In this document: positions 75-62,935 of the stretch, in pieces
Layout: every line of letters begins with the position of its first letter
Position numbering within the stretch: position 1 is the first letter of the stretch
Assembly (NCBI GenBank): GCA_016218045.1
Contig: JACRFB010000015.1
Coordinates: forward strand, 1-64,000
Reading direction: 5' to 3'
Length of the DNA stretch: 64,000 bases
DNA from: Ignavibacteriota bacterium
GTDB taxonomy: Bacteria > Bacteroidota > Ignavibacteria > SZUA-365
The notes under the pieces: generated by a model
The model's input: only the letters and a program-made list of their open reading frames with translations
Databases searched by the model: none
Told to the model about the DNA's origin: nothing
Program-made: the position numbers and the translations under genes

Positions 75-128
75 GTGAAAAAGAAATAACAGAAAAAACT
101 CTCGTGCTCTTGTGTGTTAACATAAAAG

Positions 129-226
129 CGGGAGAGCGGGAGAGCGGGAGAGCGGGACAGCGGGAGAGCGGGACAGCGGGAGAGCGGGACAGCGGGAGAG
201 CAGGACAGCGGGAGAGCAGGACAGCG
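129..226. repeat. Octanucleotide tandem repeat (GGGAGAGC/GGGACAGC), array 1
   Basis: About twelve 8-bp units, mostly GGGAGAGC or GGGACAGC with two degenerate CAGGACAGC-type junctions. The same unit returns at 3617-3729, so the two arrays flank the paralogous gene pair 748-3606. A forward ORF (71-310) through the array only translates the repeat (AGERESGRAGQRES type) and is not considered a gene. Confidence 0.9.
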
Positions 227-249
227 TTCATCCTGGTTACCCCTTCACC

Positions 250-308
250 TCTTTACCCCTTTACGCCTTTACCCCTTTACGCCTTTATGCCTTTACCTCT
301 TTACGCCT
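250..308. repeat. Octanucleotide tandem repeat (CCTTTACC/CCTTTACG)
   Basis: About seven units of the form CCTTTAC plus C or G run up to and into the 3' end of the minus-strand gene at 301-561. The TAA stop of that gene is formed by a TTAC of the last unit. The rest of 1-300 holds array 1 and no gene that I can support. Confidence 0.85.
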
Positions 309-561
309 GAAGACTGAGGTCCACGAGCTTCGACTCCACGCCCGGAATCACTGCAACTTTGCGGGCGAGTTCCTCCTTCTGTTCGTCGCTGCCGTGTAGT
401 TCAAGAATCAGCAGTCCCTCGTCGGAACAGTTGTCGAGTACGCCGTCGTGAATGCCCAGGCGTGTCTTGATGATACAGCCCCAGGCGGTAAGAACTTTCT
501 GCACATTGACCGCGGCTTCACCACGTTTTCCGATGAGGATGAGGAGAATGGATTTTTTCAT
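301..561 (-). CDS. Small ACT-like protein of the TM1266 (iron-only hydrogenase system regulator-like) type
   Basis: The 86-residue protein begins MKKSILLILIGKRGEAAVNVQKVL and contains GCIIKTRLGIHD and VIPGVESKLVDLSL. This matches the length and pattern of the small ferredoxin-like/ACT-like TM1266 family: a first beta strand, then WGxIIxxRxGI, then a C-terminal xxPGVxxK strand. In some bacteria members sit beside [FeFe]-hydrogenase maturation genes, but no hydrogenase gene is visible here, so a regulatory role is only inferred. The start is supported by GGGAG seven bases upstream of the ATG. The stop codon lies inside a CCTTTAC repeat array, so the 3' end may be subject to repeat-length change. 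The gene stands alone and divergent from its right-hand neighbour. Confidence 0.7.
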   Translation of the reverse strand: MKKSILLILIGKRGEAAVNVQKVLTAWGCIIKTRLGIHDGVLDNCSDEGLLILELHGSDEQKEELARKVAVIPGVESKLVDLSLQA

Positions 562-616
562 GAGGTGCTCCCGATTGAGGTGCGGAACATTTATTGGTGC
601 AGAAAAATACGAAAAA

Positions 617-664
617 GTCCCTACTCCCTACTCCCCACTCCCTACTCCCTACTCCCCACTCCAC
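617..664. repeat. Heptanucleotide tandem repeat (CCCTACT/CCCCACT)
   Basis: About seven 7-bp units, CCCTACT alternating with CCCCACT, lie in the gap between the divergent genes at 301-561 and 748-2103. The same heptamers reappear in the longer array at 3917-4047. Confidence 0.85.
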
Positions 665-665
665 C

Positions 666-694
666 TTGTCTCACGCCATAAAATGCAGTAAGTT
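666..694 (+). promoter_or_regulatory. Candidate promoter for the gene at 748
   Basis: TTGTCT (666-671), a 17-bp spacer, then TAAGTT (689-694). The predicted transcript would start near 701, about 47 bases before the ATG. The heptamer array ends immediately upstream of the -35 box. Confidence 0.4.
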
Positions 695-747
695 ATTTCA
701 GACCTGTTAGTGCGATACGATGTAATACGGTGGATAAACACGGGGGT

Positions 748-2103
748 ATGATGCGAACTGTGCGTGTATTCCTGCTTATCGGAGCGGCCGTTGTTTTATG
801 CGGAGTCGAGAGCGTGGGGCAGCGGGTGGCGGTGCCGCTCGATTCTGCCGGACGTGTCCTACGCCTGTCCGGCGAGACGGTCGACCGGCTCGACCTGCTG
901 CCGGAGTATCGCGGCCTCTCCGAGCTGCGTCTGTTCCGGAATCCCGATTCCACATACTCACTCGACATCGAATACACACAGGACGGACGCACAGCGCGGC
1001 TGTCCATCCCCATGAGCACAGCCGATGGCGACGCCTGGCGTTTGCGGACGGCACAGCTCCTGACGCGCAAACCCGCGGCACTCGCCTTCGATCAGGAGGG
1101 CCGCACGCGATTTCTCGTGGGCATGGCCGGACTCTCGATCGGTCTCTATTCCTGGTCGCTGCCCGTGATCCTCGACGCGGATGGCGGCGGCGCCGTGGGT
1201 GTCGGACTCGCCATGGGAGCCGGAAGTTATTTCTTTGCCTCCGCCGTCACGGCGAACCGTTCGCTCACCGACGGGATGGCCACACTCGCGCTGCAGGGTG
1301 GGTACCGCGGCAGTGTCGACGGACTTCTATTCGCCTCTCTCATCGATCCCGACATGGATGTGCAGGGTGTTGTTGCGTTGGCGACCGGCGCGAGCGTGGC
1401 GGAAATGTACGCGGGATATGTGATCGCGCGTGACAACGCGTTTACGCGCGGACGGGCGGCCACCATTGCCACGTACGGCAATTTCGGCCTGGGCATCGGA
1501 CTCGGCGCCGGCATAGTTGCGGAGAGTGATCCGTTCGACGATGCCGGCGGCGCTGCATGGCTGCTCGGCGGCAGTGCCATCGGCTACGGTCTCGGCGCGT
1601 ACCTGAGCGCCGAATCGAACTACTCGACAGGTGATGTGGATGTTGTCACAACCACGGGGCTGCTCGGTGCGGCAGTGCCCGCCTGTGTCCTCGTTGCGAC
1701 ACGTTCGGAGGACGAGCGTGTGTTCGCGGGCGCGATGTCGCTCGGGTCGATGGTCGGACTCGGTCTCGCACACACGTATCTGCGCGACCGCGACTACTCT
1801 GCGAGCCAGGGCTATTACGTGTACGGCGGCACACTCGCGGGCGGACTCATCGGCGCGGGCCTGGGATTTCTCCTCGCACCGGACGACACGCCGGAACCCG
1901 TCATCGCCGTTGCCACGCTGCTCGGATCTGCGTCGGGCTTCGCCACCATGCTGCTGTCGTTCGACGACGAGGCCAAGGCGGCAGCGCGCTCGTTTTCGTT
2001 GCGCGTCAATTTTGCGCCCGAGGTGCTGGCGCTCACACTGGCCGACTCGCCGGCCACACGCCGCCAGACGCTGCCATTTCTCTCTATCCACGCGACCTTC
2101 TGA
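748..2103 (+). CDS. Exported protein of unknown function, first of a tandem paralogous pair
   Basis: I do not recognise this ~450-residue protein. It starts with a signal peptide (MMRTVRVFLLIGAAVVLCGV, probable cleavage after GQ). A soluble N-terminal stretch of ~100 residues contains an LRLFRNPDSTY motif. The remainder consists of many Gly/Ala-rich hydrophobic segments with recurring GxGxG patterns (LSIGLYSW, GNFGLGIGLGAG, GTLAGGLIGAGLGF), suggesting a polytopic or glycine-zipper-like membrane domain. ATG at 748 or 751 is preferred over an upstream GTG at 730, because GGGGG precedes it and the signal peptide then starts cleanly. The next gene (2197) is a clear paralogue: both share the order xLFP/LLPxxxGxxExRLF, DREGRT/DQEGRT, then VTEGMAALAFQGG or LTDGMATLALQGG. 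The pair is probably co-transcribed. Confidence 0.75.
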   Translation: MMRTVRVFLLIGAAVVLCGVESVGQRVAVPLDSAGRVLRLSGETVDRLDLLPEYRGLSELRLFRNPDSTYSLDIEYTQDGRTARLSIPMSTADGDAWRLRTAQLLTRKPAALAFDQEGRTRFLVGMAGLSIGLYSWSLPVILDADGGGAVGVGLAMGAGSYFFASAVTANRSLTDGMATLALQGGYRGSVDGLLFASLIDPDMDVQGVVALATGASVAEMYAGYVIARDNAFTRGRAATIATYGNFGLGIGLGAGIVAESDPFDDAGGAAWLLGGSAIGYGLGAYLSAESNYSTGDVDVVTTTGLLGAAVPACVLVATRSEDERVFAGAMSLGSMVGLGLAHTYLRDRDYSASQGYYVYGGTLAGGLIGAGLGFLLAPDDTPEPVIAVATLLGSASGFATMLLSFDDEAKAAARSFSLRVNFAPEVLALTLADSPATRRQTLPFLSIHATF

Positions 2104-2196
2104 GGTGTGAGCATGTGTGCGAAGAAAAAGATCGACGCGTCGCGAATGTGGAATACCATGACCGCACATCCAACAAACAAAGCAGGGAAGGGACGT

Positions 2197-3606
2197 ATGG
2201 ATTCGGGCACTGAGAGTTCGCGGCATCGATGGCGGCAATTCCGCCGCGACGCGATGCGTGGAGCCGTGTGCTGTGTGCTGCTTCTATTCGGAACCGCGTG
2301 TTCAGCACGCGCGCAGGATCTGCTCATCCCTGTTGATGCGGAGGCGCGGCTCGATCATCTGAGCGCCGAATTGGAGCGGCGCATCCATCTTTTCCCCGAT
2401 GTCAGCGGTTTCCTCGAGGCGCGCCTGTTCGAAAGGGCCGATTCCACCTATGTGCTGGTCATCGATCACGGCACCGATACAGCGCCGTTGCGCAGCGAAC
2501 GTGTGATGACACGCGAACAGATGCAGGATCTGCGGCGCGAGGTCACCAACCGCGCGCATCTGTACATGCCCGAGATGGTTGTGGACCGCGAGGGCCGCAC
2601 CGCCTTCATCGCCACATGCGCCGGACTTGGCGGCACTTTCTGGGGACAGCTCATTGCCGATGGATTCGAGATACGCGGTGAACGGCAGCGCATCGGCACA
2701 TCCCTGCTCACAGCGGGAATGAGCTTTGTTGTTCCCTATGCGCTGACACACAGCCATCGGGTCACGGAGGGCATGGCCGCACTGGCGTTTCAAGGTGGTC
2801 TTCGCGGACTCGTGGACGGTGTATTCCTCGTGAATATTCTGGACCTGCGGGACGATACCTACGCGTTTATTCCCCTCGCATTGAGTCTGGGCGAACTTTC
2901 CGCGGGTTACATGATCGCCGATGCCTACAACCTCGACGCGGGCCGCGCGAGCAGCATAGCGATAGGCGGCAATCTGGGTTTCGGCATCGGCAGTTCGGCC
3001 GCCGTCATGGTGGCGGGTGGGGACGCATTCAACGGCGATGGAGTGCCCGGAAAAGTTGCGGCGCTAGCAGGATCGGCAGTCGGCTATGCAACCGCCGCGC
3101 ACATAACCAGCACCTCGCACTACACCACGGGCGACGCCAATGTGCTTGCGACGTTTGCGGTGATGGGTGCGGCTGTGCCCAGCACGGCCCTTGTCCTGGC
3201 CGAAGACGAAAAGCTAAGCCACTACGGCACCGCGTGGGTCATAGGCGGAATCGCGGGCATGGTGTACGCACATTCCTACCTCGAGCGGCGCGATTTCCTC
3301 ACGTCGGAGGCAACCTTCGTGCAGCTCGGAACAGGTGTCGGAGCACTCGTCGGTTTAGGGGTTGGTGCAATTGCAGAAGAGGCACAGGATCGCAGCGAAG
3401 GCCGCATTCTCATGGCCTGCACAATGGGCGGTGCCTTGGCCGGATTTGTCCTCACGCTGAGCGCGTACGACCGCGACGCGCGCGCACATGCGCAGGAAGA
3501 GCGCAGCCGTACATCCATCGATATCTCGATCAATCCCGCCGCTTTGTTTGTTACCTCACGCACCATCAGGCCGCTGCCGTTTCTGAGTGTGTTCGGGCGC
3601 TTCTAG
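2197..3606 (+). CDS. Exported protein of unknown function, second of the tandem paralogous pair
   Basis: This ~469-residue paralogue of the preceding gene has the same architecture: signal peptide (MRGAVCCVLLLFGTACSARAQ), a ~100-residue soluble region with EARLFERADSTYVL and DREGRTAF, then a long Gly/Ala-rich hydrophobic part (GGLRGLVDGVFL, GNLGFGIGSS, GTGVGALVGLGVGA). An upstream start at 2107 is possible, but ATG 2197 has the good ribosome site AGGGAAGGG and gives a basic n-region (RHRWRQFRRD) before the hydrophobic core. Spacing to gene 1 is 93 bases. The protein ends in LPFLSVFGRF, where gene 1 has LPFLSIHATF; ending in an aromatic residue is compatible with an outer-membrane beta-barrel, but this is only a possibility. 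The function is unknown. Confidence 0.75.
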   Translation: MDSGTESSRHRWRQFRRDAMRGAVCCVLLLFGTACSARAQDLLIPVDAEARLDHLSAELERRIHLFPDVSGFLEARLFERADSTYVLVIDHGTDTAPLRSERVMTREQMQDLRREVTNRAHLYMPEMVVDREGRTAFIATCAGLGGTFWGQLIADGFEIRGERQRIGTSLLTAGMSFVVPYALTHSHRVTEGMAALAFQGGLRGLVDGVFLVNILDLRDDTYAFIPLALSLGELSAGYMIADAYNLDAGRASSIAIGGNLGFGIGSSAAVMVAGGDAFNGDGVPGKVAALAGSAVGYATAAHITSTSHYTTGDANVLATFAVMGAAVPSTALVLAEDEKLSHYGTAWVIGGIAGMVYAHSYLERRDFLTSEATFVQLGTGVGALVGLGVGAIAEEAQDRSEGRILMACTMGGALAGFVLTLSAYDRDARAHAQEERSRTSIDISINPAALFVTSRTIRPLPFLSVFGRF

Positions 3607-3616
3607 CGAGCGCGAC

Positions 3617-3729
3617 GGGACAGCGGGAGAGCGGGACAGCGGGAGAGTGGGACAGCGAGAGAGCGGGACAACGGGAGAGCGGGACAGCGGGAGAGTGGGA
3701 CAGCGGGAGAGTGGGACAGCGGGAGAGGG
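3617..3729. repeat. Octanucleotide tandem repeat (GGGACAGC/GGGAGAGC), array 2
   Basis: About fourteen 8-bp units start just after the stop codon of the gene ending at 3606. The repeat unit is the same as in array 1 (129-226) with a few point differences (GGGAGAGT, GGGACAAC, GAGAGAGC). Between this array and the next (3730-3916) there is no convincing gene; a TACTTT at 3831-3836 could be a -10 box but has no good -35 partner. Confidence 0.9.
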
Positions 3730-3916
3730 TGACGGATCTTATATGTTCTGTGCGGTGTATCGTCGCGCGTGAGTTGGAAAGCTTCACCTGCGAGTTGGTG
3801 AGGACGTATGTGTTACAGGAAACGAATTGGTACTTTACGTCTTCAGTAGTCCCCAGTGCCGTCGCACTTTCCGCCAGAGGCGGACTCAGTGAGACACCAC
3901 GTCGCGTAACCGCCTT

Positions 3917-4047
3917 CGTCCCTCGTCCCTACTCCCCAGTCCCTCGTCCCCAGTCCCCAGTCCCCAGTCCCCAGTCCCCCGTCCCCAGTCCCCCGTCCCC
4001 AGTCCCCCGTCCCCACTCCCCACTCCCAACTCCCAACTCCCTACTCC
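3917..4047. repeat. Heptanucleotide tandem repeat (CCCCAGT and variants) abutting a start codon
   Basis: About eighteen 7-bp units: CCCTCGT, CCCCAGT, CCCCCGT, CCCCACT, CCCAACT and CCCTACT. The array ends five bases before the ATG of the GH31 gene at 4052 and so replaces the region where a Shine-Dalgarno sequence would be. The form and the CCCCAGT unit resemble the heptanucleotide STRR repeats known from heterocystous cyanobacteria. Confidence 0.9.
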
Positions 4048-4051
4048 ACAA

Positions 4052-6430
4052 ATGCTCCGCATCCCACTCCTCCTCCTCGTACTCGCGGCGTACACCTCGG
4101 CGCAGGAACTCGTGCAGCCCGGACGAATCGTGTCGGCGAAACAGAACGGCAATACCGTCGAGCTTCGCTGTGACAACGCGCGCGCCACGCTGACGTGGTA
4201 TTCCGACGAGATTGTGCGTGTGCGCTTCGCGCGCGACGCCTTCGACGCCGAACGTTCATCCGCGGTGGTGCTGACATCCGGCCGGGCCATCAGCCCGCAT
4301 GTCGAAGAAACGGATACATCGATCCGATATTCCACCGCGGCGATCACCGTGGAGATAACGCGCGGCACGTCACGCCTCCGCCTGCTCACGCCCGACGGCC
4401 GTGTGCTCACCGAGGACAACGCGGGCTTCGGCGTGACCTGGCAGGGGAGCGACGTCACCAGTCATCGGACCCTGTTCCGCGACGAACATTTCCTGGGGAT
4501 GGGCGAGAAGACCGGTCCGCTGGACAGGCGCGGCCGCCGTTTCGTGAATTGGAATACCGACTTCCCCGCATACGGCATCGAGCAGGATCCGCTGTACGTG
4601 AGCATCCCGTTTTTCATCGGCGTGCACGATTCGCTCGCCTACGGAATCTTTTTCGACAACACACGGAAAACCGTCTTCGACTTCGGCGCGTCGAGCGACG
4701 GACGCTTCATGAGTTTCTCCGCGCCCGCGGGCGATCTCGATTATTACGTCTGTGCGGGTCCGACCGTTGCCGACGTGATCCGGCAATACACCACGCTGAC
4801 CGGCCGCGCGCCCATGCCGCCGCGCTGGGCACTCGGATATCAGCAGTGCCGGTGGAGTTATTATCCGGAGTCCGAAGTCCTGAATCTCGCCCGCACCTTC
4901 CGCGAGAAAGACATTCCCTGCGACGTGATCACGCTCGATATCCATTACATGGACGCCTACAAAATTTTCACGTGGCATCCCGATCGTTTCCCTGATCCCA
5001 AACGTCTGGCTGATTCGCTGCACGCACTGGGTTTTCGTCTCGTCACCATCGTGGATCCGGGCATCAAGATCGAAAAGGGATATCCCGCGTACGAGGAGGG
5101 TCTGCGCGATGGTCACTTTGTGACGTATCCCGACGGCACACTCTACATCGGCGAGGTGTGGCCCGGCCGCTGCCACTTCCCGGATTTTACGAATGAAAAG
5201 ACGCGGCTCTGGTGGGGCCGCTCCATGCGCGCGCTGACCGACGCGGGAGTGGACGGTTTCTGGAACGACATGAACGAACCCGCGGCCTGGGGACAGAACA
5301 TACCCGACGTTGTGCGTTTCGGGTTCAACGGTCTGCCGGCCTCGATGCGCGAGGCGCACAACGTGTACGGCCTCGGCATGGCGCGCGCCTCGTACGAAGG
5401 CGCGCTGAAGCTCCGTCCCAACATCCGACCCTATACCCTGACACGCGCGGCATACGCGGGCGTGCAGCGCTATTCCGCGGTGTGGACGGGCGACAATCTC
5501 GCATCGGACGAACATCTCATGCTGTCGTCGCGCATGGTGCAGGGGCTCGGACTCTCCGGTGTGCCCTTCACCGGATCCGATGTCGGCGGCTTTATCGGCG
5601 ATCCTTCGCCCGATCTCATGACACGCTGGATGAACCTCGGCGTATTCACGCCCTTCTTCCGTGCGCATAAACATTACGGTGGCAAGTCGGCCGAACCCTG
5701 GGCCTTCGGCCGCGATGCCGAGAACACGATGCGCTTGCTGATCCGCCTGCGCTATCGCCTGTTGCCCTACATCGAAGCGGCCTTCCGCACGCATGAACGG
5801 ACGGGTCTGCCCGTGGCGCGTTCCCTCGCCATCGAATGGTCGCACGATCCCATGGTGTACGACTGGCGTTTCCACAGCGAGTACCTGTTCGGCGACCATC
5901 TGCTCGTCGCGCCCGTGCCCTCGACCGACCGCCGCGCGGATGTGTATCTGCCCGCCGGCATCTGGTACAGATTCGGATCGGACAGTCTTTTTCTCGGAGG
6001 AAGCATCCACACCGTCACGGCGCCCATCGCCGACCTGCCCGTGTTTGTGCGCGCCGGCGCCATCATACCGATGCGCCCGGTCGGGCGGAGCACGAGCGAT
6101 AGTATCGGCGATACACTCGAGCTGCACGTGTGGGAGGGCGGTGCCATCACCGCGATGGTCTATCGCGAGGACGACGGCATCAGCGTGGCCGCGCCCTCGG
6201 CATCGACACTTGTCGAACACAATCCCGCGTCCCGCTCGCTGAGCTGGGGAAATACCGAGGGACGGGGCAGTTTCCGCGCGCGCGTCGTGCGCCTCGTGCA
6301 GCACGGATCGAACAAGGAAGGATCCGCGTCGGTGAACGGCGTTTCGGTTCCGTGGACCGTATCCACGCCGAAGCAACGCTCGCTGACCGTGCCCTTTACG
6401 CCGCAGACGACCATCACGTGGCGGGATTGA
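4052..6430 (+). CDS. Secreted glycoside hydrolase family 31 (alpha-glucosidase-like)
   Basis: The 792-residue protein begins with a short signal peptide (MLRIPLLLLVLAAYTSAQ), so it probably acts on alpha-linked gluco-oligosaccharides in the periplasm or outside the cell. An N-terminal beta-sandwich is followed by the GH31 barrel with WNDMNEP, whose Asp406 is the family nucleophile, and WTGDN, whose Asp481 is the family acid/base. GSDVGGF follows at ~508, then C-terminal beta domains. The length is typical of bacterial GH31 enzymes. Exact substrate (alpha-1,4-glucan, xyloside, sulfoquinovoside) cannot be read from the sequence. No Shine-Dalgarno sequence precedes the ATG, because a CCCCAGT-type repeat array runs up to it. 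The prolyl oligopeptidase gene follows 71 bases downstream on the same strand. Confidence 0.92.
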   Translation: MLRIPLLLLVLAAYTSAQELVQPGRIVSAKQNGNTVELRCDNARATLTWYSDEIVRVRFARDAFDAERSSAVVLTSGRAISPHVEETDTSIRYSTAAITVEITRGTSRLRLLTPDGRVLTEDNAGFGVTWQGSDVTSHRTLFRDEHFLGMGEKTGPLDRRGRRFVNWNTDFPAYGIEQDPLYVSIPFFIGVHDSLAYGIFFDNTRKTVFDFGASSDGRFMSFSAPAGDLDYYVCAGPTVADVIRQYTTLTGRAPMPPRWALGYQQCRWSYYPESEVLNLARTFREKDIPCDVITLDIHYMDAYKIFTWHPDRFPDPKRLADSLHALGFRLVTIVDPGIKIEKGYPAYEEGLRDGHFVTYPDGTLYIGEVWPGRCHFPDFTNEKTRLWWGRSMRALTDAGVDGFWNDMNEPAAWGQNIPDVVRFGFNGLPASMREAHNVYGLGMARASYEGALKLRPNIRPYTLTRAAYAGVQRYSAVWTGDNLASDEHLMLSSRMVQGLGLSGVPFTGSDVGGFIGDPSPDLMTRWMNLGVFTPFFRAHKHYGGKSAEPWAFGRDAENTMRLLIRLRYRLLPYIEAAFRTHERTGLPVARSLAIEWSHDPMVYDWRFHSEYLFGDHLLVAPVPSTDRRADVYLPAGIWYRFGSDSLFLGGSIHTVTAPIADLPVFVRAGAIIPMRPVGRSTSDSIGDTLELHVWEGGAITAMVYREDDGISVAAPSASTLVEHNPASRSLSWGNTEGRGSFRARVVRLVQHGSNKEGSASVNGVSVPWTVSTPKQRSLTVPFTPQTTITWRD

Positions 6431-6501: not shown

Positions 6502-8625
6502 ATGTGCCGTATCCCAAGCGCCGCCCTTTTTCTCACACTCCTGATGCTGCTCGCACGTCCGCTCACCGCGCAGAAGCTCACGTATCCGCACACACCGAAA
6601 GTGGATCATGTGGACGCCTATCACGGCGAGAAGGTCGCCGATCCATACCGATGGCTTGAAAGCATGGATTCAAGCGCCGTGGCTGATTGGGTGAAGGAGC
6701 AGAACGCGGTGACTTTCGAATATCTCGGAAAGATTCCGTTCCGCGAAAAATTGCGCTCGCGCCTCAGTGCCATCTGGAATTATCCACGCCAGAGCGCGCC
6801 GTGGCGCGCGGGAGAGTATTGGTTCATGAGCCGCAATACCGGTTTGCAGAATCAAAGTCTCGTGTACGTGCGCAAGGGCCTCGACGGCGCGGAACGTGTA
6901 TTCCTCGATCCGAACACACTGTCGAAGGACGGGACCGTGGCGCTCGGCGGGCTGTTCGACTCCCACGACGGCACATACATGGCCTACACGATATCTCGCA
7001 GCGGCTCCGACTGGCAGGAGATACACGTGCAGAACATCGCCACCGGAGAAAAACTTTCCGATCACATCACCGGCGTAAAATTTTCCGGCGCGAGCTGGCA
7101 CGGCAACGGCTTCTACTACAACCGCTACAGCGATCCGACGAAGGAGGACCTCTCGCTCTCGGCGGTGAACGAGCGGCAGAAAGTGTACTACCACAAGCTC
7201 GGCACGCCGCAGTCCGCCGATGTGCTGATCCATGAAGACTCGGAACATCCGCGCCGCACCTTCTCGGTGAGCAGCACCGACGACGAACGCTTCCTGATTC
7301 TTGCCGTCTCCGAACAGGGCAAGGACGGCAACGCCTTGTATGTGCGCGATCTCGCCAAAAAGGAGACTACGTGGCGGCCGATCGTCGAGACGTTCGACGA
7401 CGACTTCTGGGTGATCGATCACGAGAACGGTGTACTTCTCGTCAACACCAACAAGGGCGCGCCACGCCGCACGGTGGTGCGGATCGATCCCGCGCATCCC
7501 GAGGAAAAAAACTGGACCGTGCTGCTGCCGCAGAAAAATGACGTGCTCGCCTCGGCGGGGACGGTGGGCGGGCGATTGATCGCCGTCTATATGCACGACG
7601 CGCATCACGCGGTGTTCCAATACACACTCGACGGAAAACTCGAGCGCGAGATAACGCTGCCCACGCTGTGTACCGTGGGGGGCTTCGGCGGGAAAAAAGA
7701 GGACCAGTTTACCTTTTATTCCGTCACATCGTTCACCTTCCCGAACGCCGTGTACAAGTATGAGATCACAACGGGGAAGTCCACGCTGTACTGGCGTCCC
7801 GACATCGCCGCCGACCTCGAAACCTACGAGACCCGGCAGGTGTTTTACCGCAGCAAGGATGGAACGCGCGTACCGATGTTTCTGGTGCATAAGAAGGGCC
7901 TGAAGCTCGACGGCACGAATCCGACGCTGTTGTATGCGTATGGCGGATTTAATGCGAGTATGACACCTTCGTTCAGCGCCGCGCGCCTGGTGTGGCTCGA
8001 GAATGGCGGTGTGTACGCGATGGCCTGCCTTCGTGGCGGAGGCGAGTATGGCGAGGAGTGGCACAAGGCGGGCACGCGCCTGCGCAAACAGAACGTGTTC
8101 GACGATTTCATCGCGGCCGCCGAATATCTTGTGAAAGAGAAATACACATCGCCGTCCAAACTCGCCATGCAGGGCGGATCGAATGGCGGACTGCTTGTTG
8201 GCGCGGTGGCGAATCAGCGTCCGGACCTGTTTGCGGTGGCCCTTCCGGCAGTCGGTGTGATGGACATGCTGCGTTTTCACACCTTCACGATCGGCTGGGC
8301 GTGGGTGAGTGATTACGGATCGAGTGACGATCCCGCCGAGTATCGCGCGCTCAAGGCCTATTCACCCTTGCACAACATCCGCAGCGGCGTCGACTATCCC
8401 GCCACGCTTGTCACCACCGCCGACCACGACGACCGCGTGGTGCCCGCGCACTCCTTCAAGTACATCGCGACCCTTCAGGAAAAGTACACGGGTAACAAAC
8501 CTGTCCTTATCCGCATCGACACAAAGGCCGGACACGGCGGCGGCAAGCCGATGAGCAAAATCATTGAAGAAACCGCCGATGTCTATGCGTTTACGATGTA
8601 TCATCTGGGGATGAATGCCGAGTGA
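6502..8625 (+). CDS. Prolyl oligopeptidase (S9A family) with signal peptide
   Basis: This serine peptidase cleaves short peptides after proline. The 707-residue protein has a signal peptide (MCRIPSAALFLTLLMLLARPLTAQ), then the typical S9A start YPHTPKVDHVDAYHGEKVADPYRWLE, a seven-bladed beta-propeller region (~70-420) and an alpha/beta-hydrolase domain. The catalytic serine is in GGSNGG (Ser560), the acid lies in DHDDRVVP (~641-648) and the histidine in AGHGGG (His678), so the triad is intact. The start at 6502 is preferred over longer open frames because GGAG precedes it and a clean signal peptide follows. It is probably periplasmic and may process peptides made by the secreted C25 peptidases encoded downstream, which is an inference. 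Confidence 0.93.
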   Translation: MCRIPSAALFLTLLMLLARPLTAQKLTYPHTPKVDHVDAYHGEKVADPYRWLESMDSSAVADWVKEQNAVTFEYLGKIPFREKLRSRLSAIWNYPRQSAPWRAGEYWFMSRNTGLQNQSLVYVRKGLDGAERVFLDPNTLSKDGTVALGGLFDSHDGTYMAYTISRSGSDWQEIHVQNIATGEKLSDHITGVKFSGASWHGNGFYYNRYSDPTKEDLSLSAVNERQKVYYHKLGTPQSADVLIHEDSEHPRRTFSVSSTDDERFLILAVSEQGKDGNALYVRDLAKKETTWRPIVETFDDDFWVIDHENGVLLVNTNKGAPRRTVVRIDPAHPEEKNWTVLLPQKNDVLASAGTVGGRLIAVYMHDAHHAVFQYTLDGKLEREITLPTLCTVGGFGGKKEDQFTFYSVTSFTFPNAVYKYEITTGKSTLYWRPDIAADLETYETRQVFYRSKDGTRVPMFLVHKKGLKLDGTNPTLLYAYGGFNASMTPSFSAARLVWLENGGVYAMACLRGGGEYGEEWHKAGTRLRKQNVFDDFIAAAEYLVKEKYTSPSKLAMQGGSNGGLLVGAVANQRPDLFAVALPAVGVMDMLRFHTFTIGWAWVSDYGSSDDPAEYRALKAYSPLHNIRSGVDYPATLVTTADHDDRVVPAHSFKYIATLQEKYTGNKPVLIRIDTKAGHGGGKPMSKIIEETADVYAFTMYHLGMNAE

Positions 8626-8641
8626 CACAACGATTTGCTGT

Positions 8642-8930
8642 ATCCTCATACGCCTGTAAGGAGTCAGGATAAAGGAGTCAGGATAAAGGAGTCAGGAGAC
8701 AGGAATCGACACGGTGCGTGTCTCCTGTCTCCTTCCTCCTGTATCCTCACACGAGTGTTAGGAGTCAGGAGACAGGAGTCAGAAGACAGGAATCGACACA
8801 GTGCGTGTCTCCTGTCTCCTACATCCTGTATCCTCACACGAGTGTTAGGAGTCAGGAGACAGGAGTCAGAAGACAGGAATCGACACGGTGCGTGTCTCCT
8901 GTCTCCTTCATCCTGTATCCTCGCACGAGT
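8642..8930. repeat. Three palindromic repeats of the AGGAGACAGGA family (87-bp period)
   Basis: Three copies, the last two nearly identical with an 87-bp period (CGAGTGTTAGG starting at 8752 and 8839). In each copy a purine-rich arm (AGGAGTCAGGAGACAGGA) is followed after GACACRGTGCGTGTC by its complement (TCTCCTGTCTCC), so each can fold into a long hairpin. ORFs through it on both strands only translate the repeat. Related elements lie at 12480-12670 and 27410-27488. Together with the terminator at 8959 this accounts for the whole gap 8626-9005. Confidence 0.85.
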
Positions 8931-27328: not shown

Positions 27329-27543
27329 GGTAGATGGTAGATGGTAGTTGGGTAGATGGTAGATGGTAGTTGGTAGATCAGTAGCTGGTAGGTGCGTGAT
27401 CTGCTCTACGTGAGTGAGGAGACAGGAGACAGGAGACAGACTTTGGCTTGATGGCCTCCTTCCTCCTGTATCCTGACTCCTCACACGGACAGAGTAGACC
27501 GATCTAGCATCTACCATCTACCCAACTACCATCTACTATCTAG
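27329..27543. repeat. Inverted heptamer arrays (GGTAGAT ... ATCTACC) around an inner repeat
   Basis: The left arm (27329-27379) is built of GGTAGAT/GGTAGTT units and the right arm (27504-27543) of their complements ATCTACC/AACTACC. Together they can form a long stem that closes over the AGGAGACAGG hairpin at 27410-27488. This accounts for the gap between the convergent genes ending at 27320 and 27548. Confidence 0.8.
27410..27488. repeat. Palindromic repeat of the AGGAGACAGGA family, nested copy
   Basis: GTGAGGAGACAGGAGACAGG and the complementary CTCCTTCCTCCTGTATCCTGACTCCTCAC flank a ~20-base spacer. It is the third locus of this repeat family in the window, nested within the GGTAGAT inverted arrays. 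Confidence 0.75.
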
Positions 27544-27547
27544 CGCT

Positions 27548-28027
27548 CTACCACCCCTTGACCATCCGGCAATCCGAGATTTGCCGCACGTGATGCTCGC
27601 CGTGCCGCGCATAGGTCCGCAGCACATCCATGGCCGTCATCGTTCCATTCTCAGGATGAAAGGCCGTGCGCTCGAGGGCCGCTTCATCAAGCGTCTCAAT
27701 GAGGCGCGACCAGCGGTCGTGTATCCCTTCGAGCATCGCGAGCGAAGCTGCGATGGGAGCGTGCGCGGCATCGGACAGCGCGGCCCACAGATCCTGATCG
27801 TAGGGCTTCAAGGTCGGATTGTCCTCGGTGAGGATGAGCCGGAAGCGGATGTAGGCATTTGCGTGGGAATCGGCGAGGTGATGGAGCACCTGCCGTATTG
27901 TCCAGCCCCCCTCGCGGTAGCGTGTGTCAAGTTGTTCCTCGGTGAAACCGTGCACTGCTTCACGCGCAAAAGAAGGTAGTTGGCGAATGGCGCGCGCGTA
28001 ATCGGCCCGCTGTCCTGCGTCGATCAT
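27548..28027 (-). CDS. DinB-superfamily protein (YfiT/BstA-like putative thiol transferase or metal-dependent hydrolase)
   Basis: The 159-residue four-helix-bundle protein belongs to the DinB/YfiT group. It carries the three expected metal-binding histidine positions: WTIRQVLHHLADSHAN in the middle (one of the HH pair) and ARHGEHHVRQI near the C-terminus. Relatives include bacillithiol S-transferase and putative hydrolases; the thiol used in this organism is not known. ATG 28027 is chosen because AAGGAG precedes it; the longer open frame would run into the tRNA-Pro gene. It is convergent with the dnaE-like gene. Confidence 0.85.
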   Translation of the reverse strand: MIDAGQRADYARAIRQLPSFAREAVHGFTEEQLDTRYREGGWTIRQVLHHLADSHANAYIRFRLILTEDNPTLKPYDQDLWAALSDAAHAPIAASLAMLEGIHDRWSRLIETLDEAALERTAFHPENGTMTAMDVLRTYARHGEHHVRQISDCRMVKGW

Positions 28028-61256: not shown

Positions 61257-61376
61257 CTTCTCTTATCAAGAACGGCTGAGGGATCAGGCCCTGTGACGCC
61301 GTAGCAACCGGTTCCGTCAACCTCACGGAATGACAGGTGCTCCATCCTGCCCCCGCGAGGGGGAAAGATGAGACGA
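61257..61376 (+). ncRNA. SAM-I (S-box) riboswitch aptamer
   Basis: Contains the conserved SAM-I core in order: CTTATCAAGA at 61262, GAGGGATCAGGCCC, then TGACGCCGTAGCAACC ending at ~61309. A P3-like hairpin (GGTTCCGTCAACCTCACGGAA) follows, then a P4 hairpin with CCCCCGCGAGGGGG, and GAAAGATGAGACGAAG closes P1 with the 5' CTTC. It should bind S-adenosylmethionine and turn off the downstream genes when SAM is plentiful. Confidence 0.92.
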
Positions 61377-61789: not shown

Positions 61790-62935
61790 ATGTCATACCT
61801 CTTCACATCTGAATCCGTTTCAGAAGGGCATCCCGACAAGGTCTGCGACCAGATATCGGATGCAGTGCTCGACGAGATACTGAAAGCCGATCCCACAGCC
61901 CGCGTCGCCTGCGAATGTTTTGTGACGACCGGCTTCGTCCTGGTCGGCGGTGAGATAACCACGCGCACCTTTGTCGACATCCCCGAGGTTGTGCGTCGCA
62001 CGATCCGTGAGATCGGGTACACGAAGGCGGAGTACCGCTTTGATGCCGACAGTTGCGGCGTCGCGTCGCATGTGCATCAGCAGTCCGGCGACATCGCGAT
62101 GGGTGTGGACACAGGCGGCGCCGGTGACCAGGGCATGATGTTCGGCTACGCGACGAACGAGACCCCCGAATACATGCCCATGGCCATCGTGTACGCGCAC
62201 AAGCTGGTAGCGCGGCTCGCGGAAATCCGGAAAATGAAATCCTCGCCCATGCCGTACCTGCGGCCCGATGCGAAGTCGCAGGTCACGATCGAATACAACG
62301 GGCGCAAACCCGTGCGTGTGCACACCGTCGTGATTTCGACACAACACGATCCCGACGTCTCCCAGAAGCGCATCCGCGAGGATGTGGTCAAACATGTCAT
62401 CAACAAGGTGATTCCCAAGAAGCTGCTTCCTGTCGCACCCGTCATACATGTGAATCCGACAGGCAAATTCGAGATCGGCGGACCGCACGGCGATTCCGGA
62501 CTCACCGGCCGGAAGATCATCGTCGACACGTACGGCGGCCGCGCACCGCATGGCGGCGGCGCGTTCAGCGGCAAGGATCCCTCGAAGGTTGACCGCAGCG
62601 CCGCCTATGCGGCGCGGCATCTCGCGAAGAATGTGGTCGCCGCGGGACTCGCCGACGAGTGTACCATACAGGTAAGCTACGCGATCGGCGTCGCCCAGCC
62701 CGTCTCGATCAATGTCGACACGCACGGCAGCGTCAGGCAGGGCCTCACCGACGAGCAGATCGCGGATTTTATCCTGCACAACATCGACATGACGCCGACC
62801 GGCATCATCAAGCGCCTCAAGCTCCGCCGCCCGATATATCGCAACACCGCCGCCTACGGACATTTCGGACGATCGAATCCGGAATTTACCTGGGAAGGCC
62901 TCGATCTCGTGAAAACCTTCAAGAAAATCGGCTGA
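61790..62935 (+). CDS. metK: S-adenosylmethionine synthetase
   Basis: Makes SAM from methionine and ATP. The 381-residue protein contains [24 protein letters not shown] with the ATP-site His, [32 protein letters not shown] and [19 protein letters not shown], all the family signatures. ATG 61790 has AAAAGGA upstream. It lies downstream of a SAM-I riboswitch and a 77-residue ORF and 60 bases before ahcY. The order gives feedback control of SAM synthesis by its product. Confidence 0.97.

Follow-up and report, generated by a model that had tools for sequence, protein, structure and literature searches.

Arrays of G-rich heptamers have been described in Xanthomonas (unit GGGAATC) and Nostoc PCC 7120 (GGGGA(C/T)T), and CD data on G-quadruplexes have been published for (GGGGACT)n (PMC4692102); for the octamers, no published CD data were found in the literature. 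The preference of bacterial microsatellites for 7-bp units and their presence in unrelated genomes have been open questions since the LSSR surveys. The two Xanthomonas strains in which GGGAATC arrays were investigated are also listed as carriers of RAYTs and REPs (PMC2817692), and Nostoc punctiforme has RAYT-linked REPINs (PMC3116915), which in either case is a correlation only. No paper joining REPs and heptamer arrays was found in the literature; if the REP/RAYT link proposed below is true, two repeat classes that have been treated separately become joined.

The window analysed here, a stretch of 64,000 nucleotides from an Ignavibacteriota genome, starts with several such arrays. An earlier note on this DNA had considered arrays of this kind to be known mainly from heterocystous cyanobacteria, but they have been published also for Xanthomonas, Burkholderia, Beggiatoaceae, and Bacteroidetes (PMC4692102, PMC4679880). 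That reading missed the strand polarity of the arrays, their nesting into palindromes, and their REP/RAYT neighbourhood.

Arrays and genes at the start of the window

All five arrays that the earlier note had placed around a pair of paralogous genes were recovered by TRF and direct reading (Table 1). The paralogy is well founded (34% identity over 456 aligned positions, E 4e-62), and the array coordinates bear out that octamers and heptamers lie on either side of the pair. The FCB-type affiliation of the chromosome also stands, the closest named homologue of the GH31 glycosidase being that of an Ignavibacteriae MAG (54%). The claim that the arrays all lie between genes holds for the others but not for array 237-308, which reaches into the stop codon of a small gene of the CPF_0552 family (301-561, minus strand); this gene takes its TAA from the first unit of the array. 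As at 301-308, a gene next to an array can thus owe its stop codon to it, and stop codons are overlapped by 24 arrays in this genome and start codons by only two.

Table 1. Features of the window. The five arrays at the window start were located by TRF and direct reading; for these arrays, the strand is that of the G-rich sequence.
Feature	Position	Strand	Details
Octamer array GGGAGAGC/GGGACAGC (GGGASAGC)	127-226	+	12.5 copies
Octamer array GTAAAGGG/GTAAAGGC (TTACSCCT = CCTTTACC/G)	237-308	-	9 copies
Heptamer array GGGAGTA/GGGAGTG (TCCCYAC)	618-662	-	6.4 copies
First paralogue	about 748/760-2103	+	No match in Pfam or NCBIfam
Second paralogue	2107-3606	+	No match in Pfam; weak, sub-cut-off NCBIfam match to an OmpA-family lipoprotein model
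Octamer array GGGASAGC	3616-3727	+	7 x 16 bp
REP-B-like palindrome remnant (GTGTCTCACTGAGTCCG...CGGAAAGTGCGAC)	3861-3898	-	Between arrays 3616-3727 and 3916-4047; by sequence reading
Heptamer array GGGGACT/GGGGACG/GGGAGTA (TCCCCAG/TCCCCCG/TCCCYAC)	3916-4047	-	
GH31 glycosidase	4052-6430		Downstream of the paralogue pair
Prolyl oligopeptidase	6502-8625		Downstream of the GH31 gene
Three E2 hairpins in tandem, 87 bp each	8658-8930		(AGGAGAC-type)4 - loop - (GTCTCCT-type)4, GTGAG/CACAC flanks; one unit fold z -3.9
Two E2 hairpins, AGGATAC arms	12497-12678		Fold z -4.3 and -3.7
Nested palindrome, 225 bp	27329-27553		Between convergent genes; GGTAGAT array - AGGAGAC array - loop - TCCTGT array - ATCTACC array

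The two arrays at either end of the gap between the second paralogue and the GH31 gene belong to different unit families. As a whole, this gap (3607-4051) folds no better than its shuffles (z 0.14), a specific hairpin there is not supported, and the window arrays alone form no computed Watson-Crick fold; they do contain the repeated motif G3+ N3-5. The REP-B-like remnant between the two arrays has a fold z of -2.8, and a second exact copy was not found among the fetched loci. Far downstream, the window encodes a SAM-I riboswitch (RF00162, 71.9 bits; 61260-61374, plus strand) near a tRNA-Thr gene and upstream of a gene at 61790.

Array load across the genome

The genome comprises 4.77 Mb on 72 contigs; the following statistics are based on 1.90 Mb that were partly picked for array hits. 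This portion contains 269 intergenic arrays with a period of 7 or 8, and 261 arrays share about 75 distinct majority units among them. Of the 255 arrays with a period of 7 or 8 (or multiples thereof) in the first 1.55 Mb, 245 are intergenic, and these two periods account for 208 of the 251 intergenic arrays of any period (139 and 69, respectively). The load of arrays is unusual, and they are not rare: their density is 10.4 per 100 kb when only stretches not chosen for arrays are considered. When 268 kb of sequence were shuffled locally, the same detector found no array with at least three copies, and the arrays are LSSRs in the sense of tandem units of 5-11 bp that extend beyond chance length. 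Searches for 2.5 units of GGGASAGC and CCCCNGT yielded 437 and 41 matches genome-wide, with none for either reversed control.

The identity of CCCCAGT with a cyanobacterial unit, which the earlier note had brought forward, probably carries little weight. Its complement GGGGACT predominates in only 2 of 261 arrays among about 75 units, so that a chance match, given the many G-rich heptamers, would suffice as an explanation. The notion of a shared maintenance machinery is not supported. The genes mutS and mutL both occur without in-frame stops, and defective mismatch repair was rejected as an explanation for the arrays. An SbcD-like match (G000:C20:7165-7404) is weak in this hairpin-rich genome (29.9 bits, below cut-off), and SbcD matches are stronger in some relatives and weak or absent in others; possibly, this hairpin nuclease has been lost here. 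Another intergenic repeat of the genome (CGTATTCCCCGCACGCGCGGGGATGAACCGG, 25 copies) resembles a CRISPR direct repeat.

Strand polarity of the arrays

The G-rich strand is directed away from the nearest gene, as called with a frame-specific hexamer model, in 160 of 186 arrays (160:26, p ~1e-24). This polarity is present in convergent (43:3), co-directional (84:16), and divergent spacers (33:7), and holds up in a flip test at the level of whole spacers (z 7.9). Within 50 bp of a stop codon, the G-rich strand is sense in 62 cases and antisense in 3; within 50 bp of a start codon, it is antisense in all cases but one (27:1). Together with the ratio of 12:2 on three held-out contigs (C1, C46, and C50), for which the rule had been set before they were analysed, this is the placement known from Xanthomonas and Nostoc.

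Most unit families follow the rule when taken singly (GGTAGWT, 29:0; GGGASAGC, 30:2; GGGAGTN, 21:2). It is weaker in the AGGAGAC hairpin family (20:9) and is not followed by the weakly skewed AACGTG family (1:6). When purine skew replaces G skew, this genome has a ratio of 190:40 and other Bacteroidota one of 12:2; the loci of the latter had been fetched for an unrelated reason; 10 of those 12 rule-following arrays lie between convergent genes. Spacers with several arrays show the order '+-' 21 times and '-+' as a simple pair never, and the typical layout is a purine array followed by a pyrimidine array, with hairpins or REPs in between where present.

At the window start, the three arrays 237-308, 3616-3727, and 3916-4047 obey the rule. 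Array 237-308 is directed away from the CPF_0552-family gene with its G-rich strand in sense. Array 3616-3727 begins 10 bp past the stop codon of the second paralogue (sense), and array 3916-4047 stops 4 bp short of the ATG of the GH31 gene (antisense). Array 618-662, located between divergent genes, breaks the rule by directing its G-rich strand toward the closer gene.

Since the polarity is independent of gene orientation, extends to most unit families, and is seen again in other Bacteroidota, it seems to reflect the element itself or the boundaries of spacers rather than one sequence. The rule can be tested on any genome.

Palindromic elements and REPs

Many arrays are parts of larger palindromes. 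Element E2 is a hairpin of 80-87 bp, with GTGAGGA and about four heptamers in the left arm, a loop, complementary heptamers, and CACAC at the end. It is frequently enclosed by an outer pair of GGTAGAT and ATCTACC arrays, and 97 left arms are present in the 1.90 Mb. The nested palindrome of the window has a DNA fold of -71.2 kcal/mol (z -11.6). Element E1 combines a REP-like palindrome (GTGTCTCGCTGAGCGGAGTCGAAGCGCGAC) with a GGGASAGC array and the hairpin GCGGCCGAAGGCCGC; its core has 18 array-linked copies in the same 1.90 Mb, where REP-A and REP-B have 92 and 38 intergenic matches, respectively. E1 and E2, but not every array, resemble REPs and BIMEs in being high-copy extragenic palindromes in inverted or tandem clusters.

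The outer arms of a spacer belong to the same family in 12 of 39 pairs, against 4.0 expected, and to different families in the other 27. All 54 combinations of a REP-B copy and an array with clear skew within 150 bp have the same orientation, although this count includes tandem clusters and its members are not all independent. REPs are about twice as frequent in spacers with arrays (17/110 vs. 23/316, p 0.02). With a recognised REP within 150 bp of only 51 of the 269 arrays and an enrichment of about twofold, REPs are ruled out as a universal driver of array formation.

Y1 transposase loci

The genome has five matches to Y1_Tnp (PF01797). Three of the five loci have an array to the left and to the right at a distance of up to about 1 kb, compared with 3.1% of ordinary genes (p 3e-4), and the intact Y1 genes among them sit amid tandem REPs. 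In locus L193, the Y1 gene is flanked on both sides by REP doublets and E2 arrays, and L195 is similar. Within positions 5700-6800 of L193, the intact gene has four tandem two-hairpin REPs per side in opposite orientation (GAGCCC...GGGCGACATTCACCAACCCACGCC...). Tandem REP copies bracket the Y1 gene also in L220; those of L193 are inverted across the gene. The island in L193 resembles a textbook arrangement of REPs and a RAYT, in an FCB genome. Locus L194, which comprises two adjacent Y1 genes, has neither arrays nor REPs.

A second genome of the same family (G004) has a single Y1 gene, located in a cluster of two-hairpin REPs with a pyrimidine heptamer array to the right and a degenerate purine stretch to the left (p 0.002, a statistic limited by the choice of this stretch for its Y1 gene). 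The Y1 proteins match IS200/IS605 models, and none of the four that were scanned reaches the NCBIfam cut-off for RAYTs. A Y1 transposase is the best lead for the enzyme that disperses the elements, rather than a result.

Arrays in related genomes

The unit sequences of the arrays are largely confined to this genome. The GGGASAGC pattern is absent from all 99 relatives searched, including 11 of the same family, and GGTAGNT, with 82 matches here, has 1-10 matches in only 5 of 394 other genomes of the phylum, which rules out retention of the unit sequence for both patterns. The style of the arrays is nevertheless shared, and arrays as such are not absent from relatives: 220 kb of G004 contain nine arrays with other units (AAACGTT, CGATTCA, ACGATTT, GTGAAAAG/TACCTTTT, and ACTCTTT), including one inverted octamer pair. 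The array style is common to the two genomes, with turnover of the units. By contrast, the REP-B core TGAGCGNAGTCGAAG itself is shared: this genome has 95 copies and G004 has 38, with further copies in other orders of the class, and REP cores seem to be older than the arrays, whose units are private.

Origin of the arrays

The reading we favour, with moderate confidence, is that the arrays are arms and borders, expanded by slippage, of extragenic palindromic elements of the REP/BIME type that gather in spacers. An element with a purine 5' arm would land in a spacer, and the arm would then multiply in steps of 7 or 8 bp by replication slippage. Later palindromes would insert at the centre of the element, which would create concentric arms and polarity and might also account for the unlike outer arms. 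A purine-first palindrome in a spacer would have one and the same polarity irrespective of how the genes on either side are oriented, as observed. With less certainty, the dispersing enzyme may be a Y1 transposase (IS200-like/RAYT), which is proposed because islands of REPs and arrays surround Y1 genes in both genomes. More tentatively still, the arrays may be multimerised recognition arms of REP-type elements, with a Y1/RAYT single-strand transposase both dispersing them purine-first and driving their growth in 7/8-bp steps; the heptamer arrays of Xanthomonas, Nostoc, and Bacteroidota would then form one RAYT-linked class and not be passive microsatellites.

A possible but less probable explanation is that the arrays are plain LSSRs, created in spacers by polymerase slippage and purged of the wrong orientation by selection against harmful sense leaders (purine-rich, Shine-Dalgarno-like, or G4-forming), with REPs and RAYTs as bystanders. 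Heptamers dominate the LSSRs of many genomes, which has been ascribed to the contact length of the polymerase (Mrazek 2007, as cited in PMC4692102 and PMC4679880), and the lack of a Watson-Crick fold in the window arrays fits this explanation. In array-free spacers, too, C exceeds G in the sense strand ahead of genes (skew about -0.09 to -0.13), but there is little skew downstream of stops, where arrays are most polar; background composition therefore does not explain the polarity at stops. Moreover, same-family arms pair up more often than expected by chance, and many arrays belong to dispersed elements. Slippage combined with selection on leaders and trailers explains the starts well, the stops poorly, and the divergent spacers only in part. 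We consider it unlikely that the arrays are selected mRNA elements, i.e., G-rich trailers after stops (RNA G-quadruplexes or bidirectional terminator hairpins) and C-rich unstructured leaders before starts that act on the formation of transcript ends or on transcript stability. The strong placement at stops and starts would agree with such a role; it is the same as in Xanthomonas and Nostoc, for which G4 structures of oligonucleotides have been reported in vitro (PMC4692102), and so would the preponderance of convergent genes among the rule-following arrays of other Bacteroidota. However, polarity holds also in divergent spacers, where no gene ends, several of the about 75 units lack G-runs, and there is turnover of the units within the family.

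Repeats collapsed or invented by short-read assembly, an artefact that the earlier note had considered, are a highly improbable source. Many of the 72 contigs end in or near arrays, and the window itself begins at base 1 of its contig, with the first array about 130 bp from the assembly end. Yet the arrays contain ordered unit variants and have intact genes on either side, and an artefact is unlikely because the same style recurs in G004, which is a single contig of 5.24 Mb.

Comparison with known systems

Cyanobacterial STRRs and the TAACTGA repeats of Beggiatoaceae, Cyanobacteria, and Bacteroidetes are spacer heptamers with mixed families and a patchy distribution among relatives, as here, but their unit sequences differ. 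TAACTGA in Beggiatoaceae is located mostly just upstream of starts in a single orientation, unlike here, and a palindromic element, as found in this genome, is not reported in the accessible part of the source (PMC4679880). REPs, BIMEs, and REPINs with their RAYTs (Y1, IS200-like; PMC3116915, PMC2817692) share with the present elements the dispersed extragenic palindromes, the inverted doublets, and the clusters beside a single-copy Y1 gene. They differ in that the arms found here are tandem arrays of 7 or 8 bp with variable length; the Y1 proteins score below the cut-off of the RAYT model, and the REPs found here are candidates.

The closest precedents are the G-rich heptamers of Xanthomonas and Nostoc, which have the same polarity. 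Like the arrays described here, they are intergenic, show unit variants and convergent inverted pairs, and have the G-rich strand in sense up to 50 bp after stops and in antisense up to 50 bp before starts; the GGGGACT unit of Nostoc is identical to CCCCAGT of the window. Whereas that work dealt with a single dominant unit in each genome (PMC4692102), the present genome has about 75 units, including octamers, together with nested palindromes of several families, adjacent REPs, and a polarity that extends to spacers between divergent genes. The short tandem repeats themselves are of a known kind; what is new is their polarity across many unit families and their nesting with transposase-linked (REP) hairpins.
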